Source of the DNA: Calvatia gigantea
Lineage: Eukaryota; Basidiomycota; Agaricomycetes; Agaricales; Lycoperdaceae
Direction of reading: 5' to 3'
DNA: 64,000 nt
Assembly (NCBI GenBank): GCA_025093985.1
Contig: JACAAK010000014.1
Location: forward strand, 1,240,001 to 1,304,000
The position numbers and the translations under genes are program-made. The notes under the pieces were generated by a model, which made no database searches, was not told the DNA's origin, and saw only the letters and a program-made list of their open reading frames with translations. Below are positions 33,663-60,137 of the stretch, piece by piece (the stretch's first letter is position 1; each line of letters begins with the position of its first letter).

Positions 33663-34285
33663 TGTCACAACCCATACACGCACTCACCTGCTTCACCCAC
33701 TCTTACCTGGACTATACTTTATATTTTATTTACCATTCGCTCTCACCTGCTCTCCCCCGTCTCCCCTGCTCTCCATTCTTACTATTATGTCTGACGTTAA
33801 TTTCCGATTATCCTCCTTGTACATTTCTCCGGTCATTATACCTACTCCTGTTTCCCTTGCAATCCCTTTTACCATTCATATCATTCCTGTTTCACCTTAT
33901 TCCTTTTAGCTAGTTGCATTCCCAGTGTTTTTATCTAGCGGCCATACCTAGCCTGCACCTGAAGTCATAGTAGTTTTCTTTTGTAGAACCACACTTCCTC
34001 GCGTATATAAACCATAGCTACTTCGCCTGTAATCCTCAGTCTGAAATCTACTTAGCGACATGCTTCTCCTATTCCACCTCTGTCTCTGTCTCTGTCTTTG
34101 CCTCTGACTCTGTCCTCATCCCTTATTCTGAAGTTAGGACCACTTGTCAGCAGGAGGGCGCAACACATACGTTGAAGCCACGGTCCTCCCGAGTTCACCC
34201 ACTTCGTCCATCTTCATCCGCATCCATGCATTATTCCCAGGCATCTAGACTCCAGTTGTCTCACCCACGTGACCCACACTTAACA
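33663..34285 (+). repeat. Ty3-3 5' LTR
   Basis: 623 bp. TATATAA at 34004-34010 is a clear TATA box. The motif AGTCTGAAAT at 34038-34047 is 34 nt downstream and likely marks the transcript start. Confidence 0.9.
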
Positions 34286-34335: not shown

Positions 34336-37300
34336 ATGGCTACATTTGTCAGAACTAAGACTGGTGCAACCGTTCGTCGGTCCCTTCGCAACAATCCCAA
34401 ATGAACCCCTTCATCAACCTAATCTACCCCCAGAACTCAGAGATCGAAACAGTCTCACCTATCTGTTCCAGGTGACTTCCCACAAAACTCCCCTAACCCC
34501 TTCGTAGAGCCGATCTGGGAGGAACTTCCCGAATATAGCTCCAGCCCACCTCGGAGCCCGAGTAGTGGAAACAGCGTAGGCGGCACAGTCCCACCTGGAG
34601 ATCCTGGCTACTCTGGTGGTGGTGACTATGGTATTAATGATGAAGACAACTATGGTGATGACCAGAATGATGGTCTAGAATATGCCGATTACCCTTACTC
34701 CAATCCTGATGATGGTGGAGGTGATGGGCCTGGAGGCAATGATGAACCCGAGGAACCATCGGATGATGATGATGATGGTGATGATGAAACAAGCACTAGT
34801 GAGCCGCGCAGCCATCGGGGACTTGATCGCCCTCTGGCCTGTGCTATTAGATCCCTTGCTAACGCTATAGACGATCATGCCTGCTCTCAGCCACCCCAGC
34901 CTCCTCGACCTCCCCATACTAAGGCCCGTGAACCCAAACCATTCAGCAGTGCCAACCCCGATGACCTTCCTCGCTTCCTTTTCCAATGTCGACTCTACTT
35001 CCGTGCCAACCCTACACAATTCACATCTGATACCACCAAGGTCAACTTCGCCCTCACCTTCCTCACTGATGTCGCTCTTCACTGGTTTGAAACTGGCATC
35101 GACCAGGAAGAGACTCAAGGCATATCCCATGCCTGGTCCACTGACTGGGATGAGTTCACCACTGAGCTCAAGACCAACTTCGGTGTAGCCGATAAAGAGG
35201 CAGAAATAGAATAACTAAGTGTGATATGGATGTACAGCTTAGATTAAGCTGACGGAACAGATTTTTAAAGATTTCTGCACAAGGCAAGTTCGTGGGGAGG
35301 CAATCTGACAATATAAGGGACAATTCCACAAAATAACATGAAACAACGACACGTAGAGAACACTAGAATAGCTAACTACCTTCGCTAAGAAGAGCAAAGC
35401 CAAGTTACACTGTAAAAAGCGCAACTCGCATCCCTTATCTAAGAAGTTAACAAGACACAGAACCTCAGGTACTCCCTAAGATTCACCCTTATCAAGTCAA
35501 CGACCAGAAGCGCACTGTCCTACACTTGTGATACTCCAAGTACCAGGGTGTAGCAATGCAATACGCTTGTAAACTAGGCTTACTTCACAAGTAAGCTGAG
35601 GTCTTCTTCTTAGATTACAAAGGTCTCAACCTTAGCTCAAGTCACTTAATCCAGTTAATCTCGAAAGAACTTATTACTTTGCTTCACTCAGGCACAATAG
35701 ATCGCTTTTCACTGTGCTCTGAAGGCTAGGCAATGGCTAGTAGGTTCCTTGCCACATCCGACACCTCAGAGGGGGTTTATATATTATTTGGGTGCACGTT
35801 ATGATGAGACAATGATTATACAACTAGGAACATATTATCAAGCAAGGTACAAACCGGTAGATTAGATCGTGTGCCAAGAGAGCCGCAACCTGTTAGATTA
35901 GTGAAACATTGGAAATACAGAAGGATTCTGGGTATCTGTTTGTTCCGGTGTAACGGCAAAGCCGTTTTCACGCATGAAAATCGCTAATCTAAGGCATACA
36001 AGCCTAATCTAACGATTGCATCGAACCTTCCTGTAGTAGTACGACCTAATCTAAGAGCCCAACAGTATAATAAAAGAGTACTCGATCACTGTAGAACACT
36101 ATGACCATTGATGACGGATAGCGGCGGCTACGGGATGACCACTGTGCTTAACAAAAAGCAATTCTAACAGTGTACCATATGACCAGTCGTGATTCCGGCC
36201 AGACCAGGCGGTAAAACCATTCCAATGCGTCTATACAGAGCTACGGGACCCCTCCAATGAGTCTAGACTCGAGAAATAAGTCCGACGTGCTTAATCTAAA
36301 AGGCTGATCGGCGTGTTCACAAGGAAATGCCACCGTTGTTAGATTAACGAACATCACTCAGCACTAATGACATGTATGGACGCGTTCGCGTACAATCCAC
36401 GGGGACACGTAGGAGAACAGTTCACGCGATGTCCGAAATCTTAGATGTTCTACATATTTAGAAAAGAATGCAGACCCAGAGAACGGGCTAAAACACAGCC
36501 CGGAACAAACAGATACCCAGAATCCTTCTGTATTTCCAATGTTTCACTAATCTAACAGGTTGCGGCTCTCTTGGTGCGCGATCTAATCTACCGGTTTGTA
36601 CCTTGCTTGATAATATGTTCCTAGTTGTGTAATCATTGTCTTGTCATAACGAGCACCCAAATAATATATAAACCCCCTCTGAGGTGTCGGACGTGGCAAG
36701 GAACCTACTAGCCATTGTCCAGCCTTCAGAGCACAGTGAAAAGCGATCTATTGTGCCTGAGCGAAGCAAAGTAATAAGTTCTTTCGAGATTAACTAGACT
36801 AAGTGACTTGAGCTAGGATTGAGACCTTTTGATCTAAGAAGAAGACCTCGGGCTTACTCGTGAAGTGAGCTTAGATTAAGAGCGTATTGCATCGCTACAC
36901 CCTGGTACTTGGCGTATCACAAGTGTAGGACAGTGCGCTTCTGGTCGTTAACTTGATAAGGGTGAAGCTTAGGGAGTACCTGAGGTTCTGTGTCTTGTTA
37001 ACTTCTTGGATAAAGGACACGAGTCGCACTTTTTACAGTGTAACTTGGCTTTACTCTTCTTAGCGAAGGTAGTTAGCTATTCTAGTGTTCTCCACGCGTC
37101 GTTGATTCGCGTTATTTTGTGGAATTGTCCCTTATATTGTCAGATTGCCTCCCCACGAACTTGCCTTGTGCAGAAATCTTTAAAAATCTATTCCGTCAGC
37201 TTAATCTAAGCCGAACATCCATATCACATTTAGTATTTCTATTTCTGCCTCTTTACCGGGCTGTGTTTTAGTCCGTTTTCTGGGTCTGCATTCTTCTCTA

Positions 37301-38514
37301 AATATGTAGAACATCTAAGATTTCAGACGTCGTGTGAACTGTTCTCCTACGTGTCCCTAGGGATTGTATACGAACGCGTTCATACATGTCATTAGTGCTG
37401 AGTGATGTTTATTAATCTAGCGACAGTGGTATTTCCTTGTGAACATGCCGATCATCCTTTTAGATTAAGCGCGTCGGACTTATTTCCCAAGTCAAGGCTC
37501 ATTGGAGGGGTCCCGTAGCTCTGTATAGACGCATTGGAATGGTTTTACCGCCTGGTCCAGCCGGAATCACGACTGGTCATATGGTACACTGTTAGAATTG
37601 CTTTTTGTTAAGCACAGTGGTCATCCCATAGCCGCCGCTATCCATCATCAATGGCTATAGTGTTCTACAGTGATCAAGTACTCTTTTATTATACTGTTGG
37701 GCTCTTAGATTAGGTCGTACTACTACAGGAAGGTTCGATGCAATCGTTAGATTAGGCTTGTATGCCTTAGATTAGCGATTTTCATGCGTGAAAACGGCTT
37801 TGCCATTACACTGACCTGAAGGGCGAATTGGCCGAACTCCTGGAGAATCTGAAGATGAAGCATGGTAAGAAGATCACCACCTATAATGTCGAATTCATGC
37901 GGCTCTCATCCTGACTTCGATGGGGCGATGACGTCCTCTGCTACCGCTACTACAAAGGCCTCCCTGATCGTCTCCAAGACGCCCTCTCTTCTTGCTCCAA
38001 TGGCAAGCCCACCTCGTTCAACGAAATGCATGAAGCAGCCATTATCCTTGATAATTGCTATTGGGAATGTCAACGCGAGAAGACCCGTGTGAAGGAAGTG
38101 GCTGAATCGGTGTCCGCTTCTCTCAACAGGAAGTCGGGTAACAATCCAGGACCTCCCTTGAACAAGGCCAGCAGCAACAACAACAACAGCAACAACAGCA
38201 ACAGCAACAAGCCCAACCACAGCAGCAGCAAGGGCAACACCTCAAACAAACCCACCAACACTACCCCATCCTCCTCCACACCTGCCAAATCATCCTCCCC
38301 TGCTAAGCCCAACTTATCTGACAAACTCGGCAAGGACGGAAAGCTGACTACCAAAAAACACAAGTGCCGCCTCGACAACAACCTCTGCCTGTTCTGTGGC
38401 AATGCCAGCCATAAGGTTAGCGAGTGTAGGAAGAAAGCTGCTTCAACTGCAAAGACTGTTGCCTGCAAGGCTGAAGTGGTTGGGGAGAGCTCTGAAAAGA
38501 GCTTGGAAAAATGA
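34336..38514 (+). pseudogene. Ty3-3 gag, interrupted by a foldback element
   Basis: Starts MATFVRTKTGATV at 34336. An acidic Gly/Asp-rich N-terminus has two TGA/TGA-like nonsense codons near 34400-34420. The capsid core (LPRFLFQCRLYFRANP, KVNFALTFLTDVALHWFE) runs to NFGV at 35187, and then the 2622-bp insertion (874 x 3 nt) intervenes. Gag resumes in the same frame at 37810 with TDLKGELAELLENLKM, an Asn/Ser-rich linker, and one CCHC knuckle CLFCGNASHKVSEC. It ends TGA at 38512-38514, overlapping the pol ATG by ATGA. Confidence 0.82.
35188..37809. mobile_element. Foldback-like element with X-Y-X'-Y' inverted blocks
   Basis: Four blocks: X (about 35188-35948), Y (35949-36501), X' (36502-37259, inverted X) and Y' (37260-37809, inverted Y). 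Y begins with a small hairpin, TGTAACGGCAAAGCCGTT. At least 15 copies of TTAGATTA/TAATCTAA are scattered over all blocks (for example 35239, 35893, 35985, 36005, 36047, 36292, 36339, 36548, 36871, 37202). There is no credible ORF. It splits the Ty3-3 gag between GGT GTA and ACT GAC; the target duplication, if any, is unclear. It is probably a non-autonomous DNA transposon; the family is not recognised. Confidence 0.72.
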
Positions 38515-41500
38515 GTGGCAGTCCTCAGGACTCTGCACAGGCTGAGGACCACGTTGAACTCACCTGTGCCACAGAGTGTTTTCGACTCAATGCTTCCACT
38601 CTTTCTAACCCCAATTCTCTGCAGCTCTATCTCACTTCCCCTTCTATTTCTTCATCCGCTTCATCCAACCTCGTCCACTTCAAGGCTCTTGTTGATAGTG
38701 GGTCTACCCATTGCTTCGTGGACTCTGACTTTGTACATTCGTATGATCTTCTGACCATGCCCATTCCTCCTATTGAACTTCATCTCTTTGATGGCTCGTC
38801 TAATGCGTACATTACTGAACTAGTGAAGTTTCCTGTTACCTTTGACTGTGGTGAATCTATGACTCTGGACTTTTACATCACCCAGCTTGACTCTTCCTGC
38901 TCTGTGGTTCTTGGATATAACTGGCTCACCCACTACAATCTGTCAATTGACTGATTTTTGGGCCATATCACTTTCTGACCACTTCAGCCTGAACTTCCTG
39001 CCACTTCTGCTCGCAATGTATCCATTCCAGTTGCACCTGCATCCTCTGCGGTGTCTGCTTCAGCCACCCCATCTGTTACCTCACAGTCTTCACCATCTAC
39101 TTCTTCTGCCATTTCTGTTACGGGCACAGTTGACACGGCTCATCCGCACATCTCACTGATTAACACCACTGCCTTCCTCCATGCCTCTCACCTCCCTGGT
39201 TCAGTTTAGTATAGCCTCAATCTCAATGACCCATCTATAACAGCTTCCTCCACCTCTGTTGAGGAGCCTCAGGACAACTGGTCCCATATCCTGGAAGAGT
39301 ACTGCGATTTTGCTGACATCTTCAGTAAAATGAAGGCTGACAAGCTTGCCCCACATTGGCTGTACGACCTCCAGATCAATCTCGAAGAAGGTGGCCAACC
39401 ACTAGTTAGTACCATCTATTCCCTATCTTAGGTTGAACTAGAGGCTCTACGTGAATTCATTGACGAAAACCTTGCTATTGGATTCATCCGCCCCTCCAAC
39501 TCCCCTCATGGAGCCCCTGTCCTCTTTGTCAAGAAAAAGGATGGTTCGCTCCGTTTATGCGTTGATTTCTGAGGTCTCAACTGCATTACCAAGAAGGATC
39601 GCTACCCCCTTCCTCTCATATCTGACCTACTCAATTTGCCCTGCAAAGCCCGCATCTATACCAAGATTGACCTACGCCACGCTTATCACCTCATCCGCAT
39701 CACAGAAGGTGATGAATGGAAAACAGCCTTCCGAACCCACTATGGATCGTTTGAGTGGCTCATTATGCCTTTCAGCCTTACCAATGCACCTGCCACCTTC
39801 CAGCAGTTCATGAATGACATCTTCAAAGATCTCTTAGATGTCTGTGTGACAGTCTATCTTGACAACATACTCATCTATTCCGATGACATCAGCATACACC
39901 ACAAGTAAGTCCGCGAGGTTCTCAAGCGGCTTAGGCAGAATGGTCTCTATGCCCATGTGGATAAGTGCGAATTCGAGTCTGACACGGTTGAATACCTTGG
40001 TTACATTCTTTCCCCTGATGGTCTCAAGATGTCTGAAGACAAGGTCAAGATTATCCAGGACTGGCCAGAACCAAAGAAGATCAAGGACATATAGTCCTTC
40101 TTAGGTTTTGCCAACTTCTATTGTCACTTCATTTATAACTACTCTGACATTGTAGTTCCTCTCACCCACCTTACCCACAAGGGTATTCCTTGGAACTTCA
40201 ATGATAAATGTCAAGAGGCTTTCCAATCATTGAAGGACACTTTCACCTCCACTCCTATCCTGACCCACTGGATCCCTGATGCTCAAATCATCATCGAGAC
40301 AGATGCATTTGACTATGCGCTAGCCACCATCCTCTCTATCATCACTGAGGATGGTGAAGTTCACCCCATGGCTTTCCATTCCTGCACATTCACTTCAGCT
40401 GAGTCGAACTACAACACACATGACAAGGAACTACTGGCTATCTTTGAAGCCTTTAGGATCTGGCGGCATTATCTTGAAGGTGCTCCCCTTCCCATTGATG
40501 TTGTCACTGATCATAAGAATCTGGAATACTTCTGCACCACTAAAATCCTTACCCGCCATCAAGCTCGCTGGTCCGAATTCTTGTCACAGTTTAATCTCAC
40601 CATCCACTTTTGCCCTGGCCAACTTGGTACGAAGCCCGATGCTTTAACTAGATGATGGGATATCTACCCCAAAGGGGGGAATAATGGCTATGCTATGGTC
40701 AATCCTCACAACTTCCATCCAGTCTTTACTCATGAACAACTTGCAGCCTCCGTCCGCGCTACTTATCTTTATACCCCTTCCCTTTGCACAGCCACAATCA
40801 TTGACCTCGATCAGCTGCATTCCAACATCCTTTCATCTCTTCCGCAAGACCTGACTGCGGCTCAACACCTAGCCAAACCCGAAGGATGCTGGATTGTAGA
40901 TTCATCTGGTTTTCTCTGCCTTGATGACAGGATCTACGTTCCCAATGTTGACAATCTTCGACTTCGCATTCTACAGTACAAGCACAATCACATCCTTTCT
41001 GGACACTTCGGTCAGAATAAGACTCTGGAGTTAGTCCGACATGATTACACTTGGCCCGAAATCCACACGACAGTCAAAGATTTCTGCAAATCCTGTGTCA
41101 CCTGCATGTGCTCTAAGCCACAACGACACTGACTTTATGGAAACCTCAAGCAGCTCCCCATTCCTGAATGGCCATGGAACTCTATCTTTATAGACTTCAT
41201 CGAGAAACTTCCCACATCTTCCGGCTACGACACTATCCTTGTTATCGTTGATCGCCTCACCAAGCAATCTTTGTTCATTCCTACTCATGACACCATCACC
41301 TCAGCCAAACTTGCCTGCCTATTCGTCATTCATGTATTCTCGAAACATGGCATTCCTGAACATGTTACGTCCAATTGCGGTTCTGAATTCATTTCGCACT
41401 TCTTCCGCTCACTTGGACAAGCACTGGACATGAAGTTACACTTTACCTCCAGATATCACCCTGAGGGCGATGGACAAACCAAATGGACTAACCAGACTCT

Positions 41501-42269
41501 CGAGCAATACTTCCGCATCTACTACAACTACCAGCAGGACAACTGGGCTGAGTTACTGCCACTAGCTGAGTTTGCCTATAACAATGCTCCTAGTGCCACT
41601 ACTGGTGTCTCTCCATTCTTCGCTAATAAAGGCTATCATCCCAATATCACAGTCTATCCGGAATGCAACTTGGCGTCTGCATGCACACGTCAATTTGTCA
41701 TTGACCTTGATGAACTCCACACAGTACTTAAATCCGAGATCAAGCAAGCTCAAGAACAGTACCAGTCATCCACTGATACCCGCTGGACACCTGCACCTAA
41801 CTTCACAGTTGGGCAAAAGGTCTTCATTAAGGCGCAGTTCTTCCGCATGACTCGACCATCAAAGAAACTCTCAGAAAAGTATTTGGGTCCTTATGAGATT
41901 ATCGCTCAACCCAGTTCCATTTCTTATACTCTATGCTTACCTGACTCAATGCATGCTGTTCACCCAGTATTCCACATTTCGATGCTTGAACCTGCCACAC
42001 CTAACCCATTTGACGGCCACTCTGACCCGCCTCCTCCACCCATTGAAGTCAAAGGTGAGCCAGAATACGAAATCGCCTGCATCGTTGACTTGAAGATCGA
42101 CTGTTGACATGCCTGCAAGTTATTATATAAGGTCATTTGGTTGGGTTATGAGGATACTGAAGAAGAGTCTTCTTGGCTGCCTGCTACTGAATTAGAGCAT
42201 GCAGCTGAACTTGTGGCAGATTTCCATACAGCTTATCCTACTAAGCCTGGTCCCTTGCATTCCTTGTAA
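38511..42269 (+). pseudogene. Ty3-3 Pol with chromodomain, stops only
   Basis: A single frame of 1253 codons from ATG 38511 to TAA 42267-42269 without frameshift, carrying ten in-frame stops (six TGA, three TAG, one TAA), all explainable by C-to-T. Protease ALVDSGSTHCF (about 38690). RT 39480-39900 with active site YLDN (39855-39866). RNase H about 40230-40650 (ETDAFDYALATIL, GQLGTKPDALTR). Integrase HHCC (HNHILSGHFGQN, CKSCVTCMCS). The integrase core D in FIDFIEKLP is present, the second position reads TSNCGSEF (N for D), and the Glu position reads TKWTNQ (K for E). A chromodomain near 42050-42180 (PEYEIACIVD, LLYKVIWLGYEDTEEESSW) could target chromatin marks. Catalytically dead at RT and integrase. 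Confidence 0.88.
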
Positions 42270-42391
42270 CACTTAATGGACTTATTTTCACTCTTATTCA
42301 TGGACAGACCTTTTTATTATTATTGGACATTCAACTTTATTAAACATCAAAATCACGAGGAGTGAGGAAAGCCGCGTTCACCCGCACACCC

Positions 42392-43554
42392 TCAATCCTC
42401 ATGCTGGCCCCCTTCTACACCCTCTTCTGCACCATCTTCTTTTTCTCCACTCTCCTCCGCACTTTCTTCACTTCCTTCCTCTCCACTACTACCGTTTCCC
42501 TTCTCTTCCTTATCCAAGTCCATTTGCTCACCCCCTTCTCGCACCGGTTGCGACGGCCCCTCACCCCGGTCCTTGATGTCGATGTCACCCACCTCATCCA
42601 CATGCCGTCGGATATCCACACCAGGCAGCCATTCTGCAATCTGTCCTGGACATTCAGTCCTTCCTGTGTGTGGAGGATACTGTTGACTCACCACCAGGCT
42701 GAGGGCGCGGAACTTCTCTCCATTTGCAATGGTCTCCCTCAAGATCGCAGCCGAATTGTGGGTATCATGTTCTTGGTATCAGGACTCGTGTGCCATCCAC
42801 ACATTCTGCTGATACAATAAAATGATGATTTTGTTGAGGCATAGGGTGTTCTCTTCAAGTGCGGTTGTGAATTGGTTGAGATGTCATGCGAGGACATGGG
42901 GATTTGAGACCTTGGCGCTTTCACCCGGCAGCTCACACTTTTGCTTGCCCTTGATGCAAGTCACGCATTTGGTAGTAACCTGGCTAAGGACCTCTCAGCT
43001 TAATATTCAACAGGAAGAGGCTGCACTTACTTGGAGCAGGTCTGTCCGGGTTGACACCTGATACCCATGTCGATGCAGCGCTTGCAGGGGTTGTCCCCAC
43101 CCATGGGAACGCACATCTGCAGCTGAACCTCCTCCTCTTCCTCCTCATCCAATGACCCCGGCACATCGTCCTCTTCGTCCGAATCCTTTACCCTTGGCTG
43201 TTTCCTCAATTGGCTGGGGCCCGCAACCAGTTCCTTCTGGGCCTTCCCCTTCCTACATTGTCGTTCCTCCACGTTCTCCTCCTCTTGCTCCTCCCTTTTC
43301 TTACGTGCCACCTCCTCAAGCCACTTCTTCTGCTCGTCACATTTCTTTGCCTCCTCTCATTTCCTCTCCTCATCGTGCCTCTTTTTCTCCTCCTCTTCAC
43401 ACTTCTCCCTATCCACTCTTTCTTTGGCTTCAGCGGCGGCGAGGTCCACAATCAACCTGCACTTGTCCTCTTCCTCCTGCTCGTGCTGAAGTCTGGCACG
43501 TTCACATTTCTCCTTGAGTTCGGCTTGTAGTTGGGCAGCGGTCTTGGGAGACAT
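42392..43554 (-). pseudogene. Antisense spliced gene in Ty3-3, Zn2Cys6-like
   Basis: Minus strand, between the pol stop and the 3' LTR. I join complement(42392..42983, 43031..43554), with a 47-nt GTAAGT...TTAG intron, giving 371 codons with only three internal TGA stops and no frameshift. The N-terminus is a Glu/Arg/Lys coiled coil (MSPKTAAQLQAELKEKCERA onward), then a nuclear-type basic stretch and acidic run, then cysteines across the splice: C-X2-C-X6-C-X13-C-X2-C-X6-C (PCKRCIDMGIRC ... KCVTCIKGKQKC), close to the fungal Zn2Cys6 pattern. The C-terminus is acidic Glu/Gly/Ser rich. An intron on the antisense strand means its mRNA is made separately from the element RNA. A regulator of the element or a captured host gene are both possible; function is inferred only from the motif. 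Confidence 0.68.
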
Positions 43555-43690
43555 GGTGGTAGTAGGAAGTCAAGAGGCAATCAAAGGAAAATTTTCAAAA
43601 ATGCGGATCTTATACCTGCATCAAATTTTTCAACTCCATTTCCCACAACACCTTCATGGCCTCGAGGGCTCAGCCCTAAGGGGGGAATAC

Positions 43691-44314
43691 TGTCACAACC
43701 TGTATATGCGCTCACCCGCTTCACCCACTCTTACCTGGACTATACTTTATATTTTATTTACCATTCACTCTCACCCGCTCTCCCCCGTCTCCCCTGCTCT
43801 CCATTCTTACTATTATGTCTGACGTTAATTTCCGATTATCCTCGTTGTACATTTCTCCGGTTGTCATACCTACTCCTGTTTCCCTTGCAATCCCTTTTAC
43901 CAATTCATATTGTTCCTGTTTCACCTTATTCCTTTTAGCTAGTTGCATTCCCAGTGTTTTTATCTAGCAGCCATACCTGGCCCGCACCTGAAGTCATAGT
44001 AGTTTCCTTTTGTAGAACCACACTTCCTCGCGTATATAAACCATAGCTACTTCGCCTGTAATCCTCAGTCTGAAATCTACTTAGCGACATGCTTCTCCTA
44101 TTCCACCTCTGTCTCTGTCTCTGTCTTTGCCTCTGACTCTGTCCTCATCCCTTATTCTGAAGTTAGGACCACTTGTCGGCAGGAGGGCGCAACACATATG
44201 TTGAAGCCACGGTCCTCCCAAGTTCGCCCACTTCATCCATCTTTGTCTGCATCCACACATCATCCCCAGGTGTCTAGACTCCAGTCGTCTCACCCACGTG
44301 ACCCATGCTTAACA
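43691..44314 (+). repeat. Ty3-3 3' LTR
   Basis: 624 bp, close to the 5' LTR with scattered transitions, and carrying the same TATATAA and AGTCTGAAAT motifs. It would also be the downstream region from which transcription of the antisense gene could start. Confidence 0.9.
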
Positions 44315-57800: not shown

Positions 57801-58364
57801 GCGCTACGATCATACCAAGAAAAGATGAAACAGACACATGATAACAGCAAGATGAACACGAGGACATATCAGGTCAATGATGAAGTGTGGCTAGAAAACA
57901 CCAACATCCATACCAATCAGTCATCAAAGAAGCTAGGCCAAAAAAGGTATGGACCTTTCCGAATTAAGGAAAAAATAGGAGAAGCGGCGTATCGGCTGGC
58001 GATACCAGATGGATGGGCCATCCATGATGTGTTCAATGAACAGCTACTAACCCCAGCACAAAAGACATCATTCCACATCCAGAAAGAAGCACCAGCGCCC
58101 AAGCCAATGATCATCAACAATGAAGAAGAGTACAAAGTAGAAGAAGTCCGAGGAAAACGACGAAAAGGAAGGGGATATCAATTCCTTATACACTGGAAAG
58201 GATACAGCAACGAAGAAGATACGTGGACAGCGGAGTCAAACTTGCAAAACGCCTGAGACGCGATAGCGGAATACCACAAAAGGCATCCGGAGGATACCTA
58301 TAAAAAGGGGGGCAAAAAATCCAGAAAGACATCAGTCAGGTCAAACCCCAGACAAAGACACTAG
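54825..58364 (+). pseudogene. Ty3-2A Pol with chromodomain, seven TGA codons
   Basis: One frame in -1 register to gag, ending at TAG 58362-58364, with TGA at 55260, 55584, 55653, 56340, 56916, 57177 and 58254. No TAA, TAG or frameshift interrupts it. Protease VDSGCTTSSIS (about 54966). RT with YMDN at 55959-55970 (second Asp replaced). RNase H about 56380-56750 (EVDASNYALGGVL, WTDHENLKYY, HVPGKTNTKADLLSR). Integrase zinc domain (YHDAPDAGHPGQ, CQNCQ), D in SIDLIGPLPE, D in LSDWGPQFASEF, E in TERINREVE. Chromodomain (GRGYQFLIHWKGYSNEEDTW) at about 58160-58230. Positions with a counterpart in copy B are mostly Arg there, as expected for CGA to TGA. The spacing to ORF3 is five bases. Confidence 0.9.
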
Positions 58365-58369
58365 CCAAC

Positions 58370-60137
58370 ATGTCCTCCCAAGCCAACCACATCTCCATCA
58401 ACTCCCTCGTCCACCCCAACCCGACCACGATCTCCTCAGTCCCCCTCCCAAAACCAGGCAATAGCCAAGCACCTGCACCCCAAGGCACCCATTACAACCT
58501 CGCGACCACCCCGTCCCCAGCACAAGGACTCCTCGAGGCCCTCCTCAAGGATGTCAACAAAGCCACAAACGATGAAGTAGAAACAATCACGGCCCAAAAC
58601 AAACGACTCGCAGTAAATCGCCATATCACCCTCGCCACTGCTTGCATCACCTTCGCGGACATGTACGCCGGGTTCGCCAACGCATCGTCCTCCACAAGCC
58701 AACACATCCCTGCCATCTTCCGCGCGTTAGAATTATCCACCCTCACACCCAGCAAACAAAGTCGAGTTCACAGCCTTCAGAACCGTGTTGACCTCGCTCT
58801 AGAAGTATTCAACCATCTCGATATCGCCGACACCTTCCTAGAACTCGCAGACGTTGCTATGAACCTACTAGGACGCGACAAGACCACAGAAGACCTAGAT
58901 GCTTGGCTCGAGCGATTGCCGCCATATACTATTTTTCTTACAGAGGAGCTGCGTCGCTATATATCATGCCCTGCTTCTAGCATCAACATTACTTCACTTG
59001 TGTTAAGCACATGTTCATGTGCCCAAGTTAGAAGACCTGTTTTAAGTCAGAGCATGGACGAGCATGTTAAAAATGCTTTGTCCGCCAACTACAGGAATAC
59101 AATGATTGCTTTAAGGAAGTTTGACTTTATGGAAGTCGCTGTCCACAATTAGGACTCGAGCGCACCATTTAGCAACTATAATTGAGAAAGAGGATGTGTA
59201 TAGCACCATACGATGCAACACGCCGATGAATTCCTTAAGAAATCCTTTAGACCGCTCCTTATGGAGCTTGGCACCGGAGGAGTTCTTGTATCGCCATCTT
59301 CGGATGTCGCTGACCTTGATACCAATGGAAGGATATATGGTAGTACTTTCGACTTCATACTCCTTGATAATTGCTACGAATAACAGTGTGCCGTGTGAGA
59401 TGTAAGTGCTGGCTATAAATCCTTTTCTACACAACAAGTGAGAAATCCTTATGGGTTATATGAAGATGATAGTGGGAGCAAATTGCCTTATTCATTCAAG
59501 AAGAAAATCCTTTATAGGATCTCATGAATCGCATCATTACAAAGAAAGGAAATTACGACATGTCTAGGAATTAGCAGAATAGCTCCCAACGTATAACGGT
59601 TGAGCTTCAGTACTATGTCACCAGAATTAATTCTTAGACCTTGCTGCTTTACATTAGGCTTGAGGCAAGAAACTGGAATCCTTCAGGAACGACAAGTATC
59701 TGAACTGCTTTTATATTCCAGCATTAGTCTATGACATTAGGGATAAAAGATTTGTAGCACCAGATACGCCCATGGACGAAGAAACCACCGTCTCAATGAA
59801 GGAGGAGGTCAATGCACTCCGACGATTCATAAAGACCATCACCCCGCCACAGATCGTATCAGTTTTTCTCCCACCAGCAAGATTCCGCAGTGTGCTACCA
59901 GGCCAAGAAAAGGACCAACATTATTGGAAAGCGATAGTCAAGAACTATTGGGACAACTCAACCATCACTGAGTTCCCCTTCAATGGAGTCCCAGTCCCTA
60001 TCCGTCAAGATGGCCGGAGCCATTTGCCCGTCTTCTTTGCACGCTCCAATGAAGGAAAGTACCTCATCGGAGCCACTAAGAAAGCCCTCGCCGCCGCCGT
60101 AGTTAATGGAGAGTTCGACGAACTTCCTGAGGCATGA
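58370..60137 (+). pseudogene. Ty3-2 ORF3 in copy A, with foreign 859-bp block
   Basis: Starts MSSQANHISINSLVHPNPT five bases after the pol TAG (TAG CCAAC ATG), -1 to pol. The first 178 codons to about 58903 are intact: Pro/Ser-rich N-terminus, then helices with LEALLKDVNKATND, FADMYAGFANASS, QHIPAIFRALE, EVFNHLDIADTFLELADVAMNLLGRDK. The block 58904-59762 is not ORF3 but matches Cop-2 51973-52831; it replaces about 28 codons and introduces stops. From 59763 ORF3 resumes (TPMDEETTVSMKEEVNAL, then GQEKDQHYWKAIVKNYWDNS, then FARSNEGKYLIGATKKALAAAVVNGEF) and ends TGA at 60135-60137. Function unknown; see copies B, E and F. Confidence 0.8.
58904..59762 (+). repeat. 859-bp block shared with Cop-2 51973-52831
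   Basis: Both copies are exactly 859 bp, run from TGGCTC(A/G)AGCGATTGCC to TTTGTAGCACCA and differ only at scattered bases. The 5' motif also occurs at 62367-62383. No terminal inverted repeats or target duplications are visible. It could be a small mobile element or a repair patch copied from the surrounding Cop-2. Confidence 0.8.

Follow-up and report, generated by a model that had tools for sequence, protein, structure and literature searches.

An antisense, intron-containing gene with a Zn2Cys6-like cysteine cluster in a Ty3 chromovirus of Calvatia gigantea

We analyzed a 64,000-nucleotide stretch of DNA from Calvatia gigantea (the window), together with related sequences from the rest of the genome. 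In our preferred reading, to which we give a probability of roughly 55%, a Ty3 chromovirus carries a spliced, antisense accessory gene, and this gene encodes a nuclear-type protein with a Zn2Cys6-like cluster that probably targets the element's own LTR.

The antisense gene and its carrier element

The gene sits between the integrase/chromodomain region and the 3' LTR of the element. A minus-strand frame of 371 codons, which runs from its ATG at 43554 to a stop ending at 42392, is split by a 47-nt intron (GTAAGT...TTAG). Three TGA codons interrupt the frame, and one extra cysteine lies between the third and fourth cysteines of the cluster: the copy in the window is a decayed relic. The first-pass annotation had described the gene from this copy, and its coordinates, frame, 47-nt intron, three TGA codons and cysteine spacing all held when we read the sequence again. 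The features of the gene and the element, in window positions, are:

43031..43554, minus strand: exon 1, with a highly charged N-terminus and the first triplet, C-X2-C-X6-C (compared in 31 family-1 and 13 sister-family copies)
42984..43030, minus strand: intron, 47 nt, phase 2, within the cysteine cluster
42392..42983, minus strand: exon 2, with the second cysteine triplet, a helical region, an acidic tail and the stop codon (42394-42392)
42935..43086 (intron included), minus strand: cysteine cluster, C-X2-C-X6-C-X13-C-X2-C-X6-C
43609..43614, minus strand: candidate TATAAG box, 55-60 nt upstream of the ATG
42336..42341, minus strand: candidate AATAAA polyadenylation-like signal, just downstream of the stop
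43678..43685, plus strand: polypurine tract AAGGGGGG, adjoining the 3' LTR, within a stretch (43653-43695) that could be aligned with the sister families
43691..44300 (end approximate), plus strand: 3' LTR, from direct repeats D1 and D2
33663..34270 (end approximate), plus strand: 5' LTR of the same element, from direct repeats D1 and D2 with 43691-44192
37915..42107, plus strand: gag/pol remains, with Pfam matches to RNase H, integrase zinc-binding, integrase core (below cut-off) and a Tf2-1-like SH3 domain

The integrase core of the window's copy scores 28.2 bits against a Pfam cut-off of 32.6. A chromodomain seems to follow the SH3 domain and to extend to about 42260, judging by eye and from a block that aligns to 42257. 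The element thus has the parts by which a Ty3 chromovirus is recognized: RNase H, the zinc-binding and core domains of integrase, LTRs, a polypurine tract and (by eye) a chromodomain. In other copies, the paired LTRs are about 622-639 nt long. The gag region of the window's copy (35189-37811) also has two interleaved pairs of inverted repeats, with arms of about 760 and 556 nt that are 93-95% complementary; this is probably a nested insertion with rearrangement.

Both candidate signals around the gene recur in other copies. At the position of the box, 19 of 31 upstream rows have TATAAG and the other 12 have CATAAG. (We considered CATAAG as a mark of older copies and rejected the idea, because the older clade carries TATAAG.) AATAAA is present in every copy for which we compared downstream rows (12 of 31).

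Copies of the gene in the genome

Across the genome (45.95 Mb in 77 contigs), the antisense gene has at least 42 DNA matches. We refer to the copies most like the window's as family 1. Among the 31 family-1 copies that we translated, including the window's, three are fully open and 24 are without frameshifts. (L029 is not among the 24, but its row starts four bases short, so its translation is an unfair test.) The first-pass annotation had named copies without the frame, or with random stops and indels, as what would speak against the gene, and this is not the pattern seen. Exon indels between subfamilies are mostly multiples of three.

The intron is kept in all 32 family-1 rows and in 13 of 13 copies of a sister family (family 2). 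In family 1, the donor is GTAAGT in 30 of the 32 rows, GTAAAT in one and GTGAGT in one, while the acceptor is TTAG in all 32; the intron of L027 is one base longer than the rest. The RNA genome of the element has sense polarity, so splicing does not remove an antisense intron before reverse transcription. The presence of the intron in all copies compared is what we would expect if sense RNA alone is copied.

Some loci have structures of their own. Beside the element copy in L010, positions 1-1871 are tandemly repeated, with a period of about 71 bases (self-matches are offset by 71, 142 and 213). L025 has two overlapping element units that form a directly repeated stretch of about 3 kb (96% identity); this yields a second, partial antisense gene. 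The antisense translation and upstream row of L018 (contig C69) are identical to those of L019 (C6), and the 11-kb contig may be a second copy of some of the assembly.

A sister family has the gene in the same place

We searched the genome for integrases, which gave 124 listed matches, and compared 14 3' ends beside integrases that lacked a family-1 antisense match. All 13 of the 3' ends with 73-83% identical integrase carry a diverged antisense gene in the same place; these are the family-2 copies. The fourteenth, L039 (89% identical integrase), is rearranged and the antisense gene is absent. Four of the 13 family-2 copies are fully open and 11 are in frame, with in-frame products of about 348-379 residues. 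In all 13, the intron lies at the family-1 position, in phase 2, and has the family-1 length; the spacing of the cysteines (C-X2-C-X6-C-X13-C-X2-C-X6-C) does not differ between the families.

Outside the cluster, the two proteins have diverged almost beyond recognition. When family 1 was compared with family 2 using hhalign, the probability was 98.2%, over 50 columns at 40% identity; these columns cover the cluster with the residues directly beside it, and the rest of the proteins did not align. Exon 2 is 30% identical between L012 and L042.

To describe placement, we tabulated exon-2 matches (33 of 70 and 35 of 50 match rows; split, short and exon-1 pieces were left out) against integrase matches (those above 40% identity among the 124, less one fragment). 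All but one of the 68 exon-2 matches (67) lie in antisense orientation immediately 3' of a related integrase, with a gap of 279-358 bp in 62 cases. The sole exception, C34:1546347, is not beside a related integrase. Conversely, 54 of the 59 integrase matches of at least 940 nt have a tabulated exon 2; in four of the other five it is split or partial, and L039 is without it. The first-pass annotation had proposed that its Ty3-3 element carries an antisense gene with an intron, and the placement of 67 of 68 exon-2 matches beside integrase makes this gene a stable part of the element. Like other antisense additional ORFs, it lies between pol and the 3' LTR and occurs in most members of the family.

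In more distant Ty3 families (integrase about 34-40% identical), we saw no antisense zinc-cluster frame in eight 3' ends and one region of the window. Some of these stretches have nested insertions and may stop short of the 3' LTR, so these absences are provisional. Half-cluster patterns occur there on the sense strand only (L054 and L060). Because none was seen in these sequences, the gene seems to be confined to one branch of chromoviruses in this genome.

The distant elements have other frames near their 3' ends. In one Ty3 group (integrase identity about 34%), the chromodomain is directly followed by a sense-strand ORF, again an additional one, that reaches 330 amino acids (in L053, L054, L055, L058, L059 and at about 58300-59150 of the window). 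The 3' ends of L056, L057 and L060 share a similar open frame of about 100-130 amino acids on the antisense strand, without cysteine triplets, which is perhaps only LTR sequence.

Purifying selection on the antisense frame

Every CpG column in the exons varies among copies (80/80, 68/68 and 72/72 by codon position). Since CpG decay dominates, we excluded these columns from the tests of selection. We considered changes that are shared by several copies separately from single-copy changes, which are expected to be mostly post-insertion. From the family-1 rows we left out L025b (a partial duplicate) and L018 (its translation is identical to that of L019); the clade contrast was made without L030, L034 and L038, and the family-2 analysis without L039, where the gene is absent.

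Family 1 includes a diverged clade (L032, L033, L035, L036 and L037). Its shared non-CpG changes comprise 25 synonymous (12.2 expected), 16 nonsynonymous (28.4 expected) and one stop, which gives omega = 0.27 (binomial p = 4e-5). In family 2, the shared changes comprise 41 synonymous (25.7 expected) and 45 nonsynonymous (57.9 expected), with omega = 0.49 (p = 7e-4). Single-copy changes have omega = 0.68 (30 rows) or 1.24 (20 best-matching copies) in family 1 and 1.03 in family 2. The difference between shared and single-copy changes has p = 0.0013 (20-copy set) or p = 0.008 (30-row set) in family 1 (Fisher exact test) and p = 0.089 in family 2.

Among the 20 best-matching copies alone, constraint on the antisense gene was not significant (27 shared changes, omega = 0.79, p = 0.34). 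The same copies give omega = 0.41 for pol (p = 6e-5; L025 and L026 cover pol in part only) and 0.72 for gag, which was not significant either. We read these results as real constraint during the divergence of lineages, with little power among close copies. The skew of shared changes towards synonymous ones, together with the conservation between families, indicates a selected protein gene. Judged by these comparisons, the antisense frame is a protein gene that has been kept by purifying selection between subfamilies. The first-pass annotation had suggested asking this of copies in related genomes, and the copies within this genome give its gene the low shared omegas reported above (0.27 and 0.49).

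The reverse frame that shares codon position 3 with the gene has a similar synonymous skew (omega = 0.36 with four stop changes in family 1; 0.51 and 0.44 in family 2). We rejected a gene in that frame because, in four intact copies that we examined, it is broken by between 5 and 7 stop codons.

The cysteine cluster and the predicted protein

None of the 13 family-2 copies has lost any of the six cysteines; in family 1 they are kept, in order along the cluster, in 31, 29, 29, 25, 31 and 30 of the 31 rows. (L021, one of the three fully open family-1 copies, has lost one of them.) Both families have both C-X2-C-X6-C triplets, joined by a linker of 13 residues; the classical Zn2Cys6 linker has 5-12, so X13 is slightly longer. 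The Zn2Cys6-like spacing noted in the first-pass annotation is thus common to the two families.

Pfam's Zn_clus (PF00172) was the best match of the whole proteins, at 10.2, 13.6, 12.6 and 14.1 bits, below the cut-off of 21 bits that defines membership. Three cluster pieces of intact copies reached 17.0-17.9 bits, and the exon-1 half from family 2, on its own, reached 19.2 bits, again against a cut-off of 21. The exon-1 half from family 1 and the exon-2 pieces had no Zn_clus match on their own. Pfam's RZ-type zinc finger also matched weakly (E = 0.04-0.09). By sequence, then, the cluster resembles the fungal Zn2Cys6 domain while falling below the Pfam cut-off. It shares with that Gal4-type domain a pair of C-X2-C-X6-C triplets, which hold the six cysteines, and a long helix after them; it differs in its score, its X13 linker, the intron that splits it and its location in a retrotransposon.

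Another difference is that the first triplet, encoded by exon 1, aligns at positions 9-37 of the Zn_clus profile, mainly to its second half. In a sequence search of the PDB, the exon-2 triplet of family 1 best matched the first (basic) triplet of AlcR (E = 0.13); this was the only Zn2Cys6 chain met in any of our PDB searches, and three other half-queries found none. A cluster whose halves stand in swapped order would produce these alignments, but they are suggestive only.

We also modelled exon 2 of family 2. Residues 37-118 form one long helix (block mean pLDDT about 70-92), followed by an acidic, low-confidence tail. Overall the model is weak (pLDDT 66.4, pTM 0.25), and searching with it in Foldseek gave no match. 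No homologue was found in a large protein set (7988, 63 and 293 candidates were scored), which may be poor in fungi, or in a scan of viral contigs.

Possible roles of the protein

Our best guess is that the protein is a regulator that binds the LTR, which we consider likely. The gene would be transcribed from its own promoter, located between the ATG and the 3' LTR, just internal to the latter. The long helix is suited to dimerization and the tail is acidic, and the product would be a nuclear dimer that binds DNA. Its likeliest target would be the element's own LTR, and by binding there the protein would control how the element is transcribed, in a way comparable to HBZ, the antisense-encoded bZIP protein of HTLV-1.

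Candidate sites are present in the LTRs. In L012, the one family-1 LTR in which we counted, TCACCCGCT (AGCGGGTGA on the gene strand) occurs four times; two other family-1 copies that we examined have fewer. The motif was picked after the fact, and 5 of 1000 shuffled LTRs had some 9-mer at least four times. In family 2, all six LTRs that we compared have one related site near the LTR start, and a second site further on is exact in three and one base off in three. The octamer TCACCCGC is also found within pol and just after the gene's stop.

A bolder version of this reading is that the retrotransposon has its own spliced antisense transcription factor, with a swapped-half zinc cluster, which dimerizes and binds AGCGGGTGA in its own LTRs. 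We hold this version only tentatively, and think it rather unlikely as a whole. If it is true, the antisense placement shields the intron from loss at each retrotransposition, and the protein is expressed by integrated copies only.

The product might instead be a real accessory protein with another job, such as nuclear entry of the pre-integration complex, tethering during integration, or binding of nucleic acids in particles. A charged N-terminus, a zinc cluster and a helix suit any nucleic-acid-binding role, and such roles have been suggested for plant antisense ORFs (PMC7264820). However, an antisense transcription unit of its own in the integrated copy would fit a regulator better than a component of particles, and the repeated CGGG-containing motif in the LTR also argues, as a weak point, against it. 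We view another job as the strongest competitor, with perhaps half the weight of the LTR-binding regulator or a little less.

Alternatively, the gene could be a captured host gene that travels as a passenger. Introns and Zn2Cys6-like clusters are host-type features, and this genome has at least 22 matches to Pfam's Zn_clus. But none of the 22 listed falls on a tabulated antisense locus, and 67 of the 68 tabulated exon-2 matches are next to an integrase. Two sister lineages share the gene in the same place and only the cluster is recognizably alike, so any capture must be old. We judge the passenger explanation unlikely.

It is slightly less likely still that the antisense RNA is what counts, with the element held in check by double-stranded RNA from convergent transcription and the protein being incidental. 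The gene is antisense to the end of the genomic RNA, and control by antisense RNA has been proposed for other LTR elements, according to passages of PMC7264820. Against this, the synonymous skew, the multiple-of-three indels, the cysteines kept across families and the retained intron all point to selection at the level of the protein.

That the open frame arose by chance, as it might on a purine-rich strand with few stop codons, is very improbable: although dinucleotide shuffles gave frames of up to 307 (L009) and 260 (L042) codons, 0 of 500 reached the spliced frame of L009 (371 codons) and 0 of 500 that of L042 in the sister family (372 codons), and the comparative evidence (frame-specific selection and conservation across families) speaks strongly against it. 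Because such a strand favours open frames and the intron was preselected, this comparative evidence outweighs the shuffle test.

If the protein is an LTR-binding regulator, this would parallel HBZ in retroviruses. With a module of DNA-binding type, open copies and candidate sites in the LTR, a regulatory role is directly testable, and the intron would mark the antisense transcript unambiguously.

Antisense genes in other LTR elements

The first-pass annotation knew of no description of such an arrangement. In fact, antisense genes between pol and the 3' LTR have been described in LTR elements since at least 1997, although their function is still called unknown (PMC7264820). In plants, additional antisense ORFs occupy this place in Grande (gene23), RIRE2, Retand and PvRetro13 (PMC7264820). 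Passages of PMC7264820 and PMC11963269 place a promoter upstream of the antisense gene of Grande, and PMC11963269 reports that the TRP28 domain of Retand is predicted to bind DNA. The plant ORFs and the gene described here share their position, their orientation, their presence in most copies and a suggested nuclear or DNA-binding role (PMC7264820 and PMC11963269). The word "intron" is absent from the main text of both papers. The plant ORFs differ in belonging to other protein families (for example TRP28 and SMC) and in their hosts, and Retand is of a non-chromovirus lineage.

A fungal example is the gene brtn, for which the original paper is Zhao 2011. It is an antisense gene of Boty-like Ty3 elements in Botrytis cinerea, according to PMC7264820, PMC8365987 and PMC4227169. 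Like the gene in C. gigantea, brtn is antisense and additional to the usual genes of a chromodomain-bearing fungal Gypsy element, as far as these descriptions of it go, but its host is an ascomycete.

HBZ of HTLV-1 is also an antisense proviral gene, transcribed from the side of the 3' LTR, and its product is of transcription-factor type and acts on sense transcription (PMC11963269). HBZ is a bZIP protein, not a zinc cluster, and belongs to a human retrovirus, so this is an analogy of arrangement and not kinship. In the open-access literature, we found no antisense gene with an intron inside a zinc cluster, and no Gypsy element said to carry a zinc-cluster gene in antisense. Mushroom genomes commonly encode zinc-cluster-like hypothetical proteins, and genes of the type described here may have been filed as host hypothetical proteins in fungal annotations.
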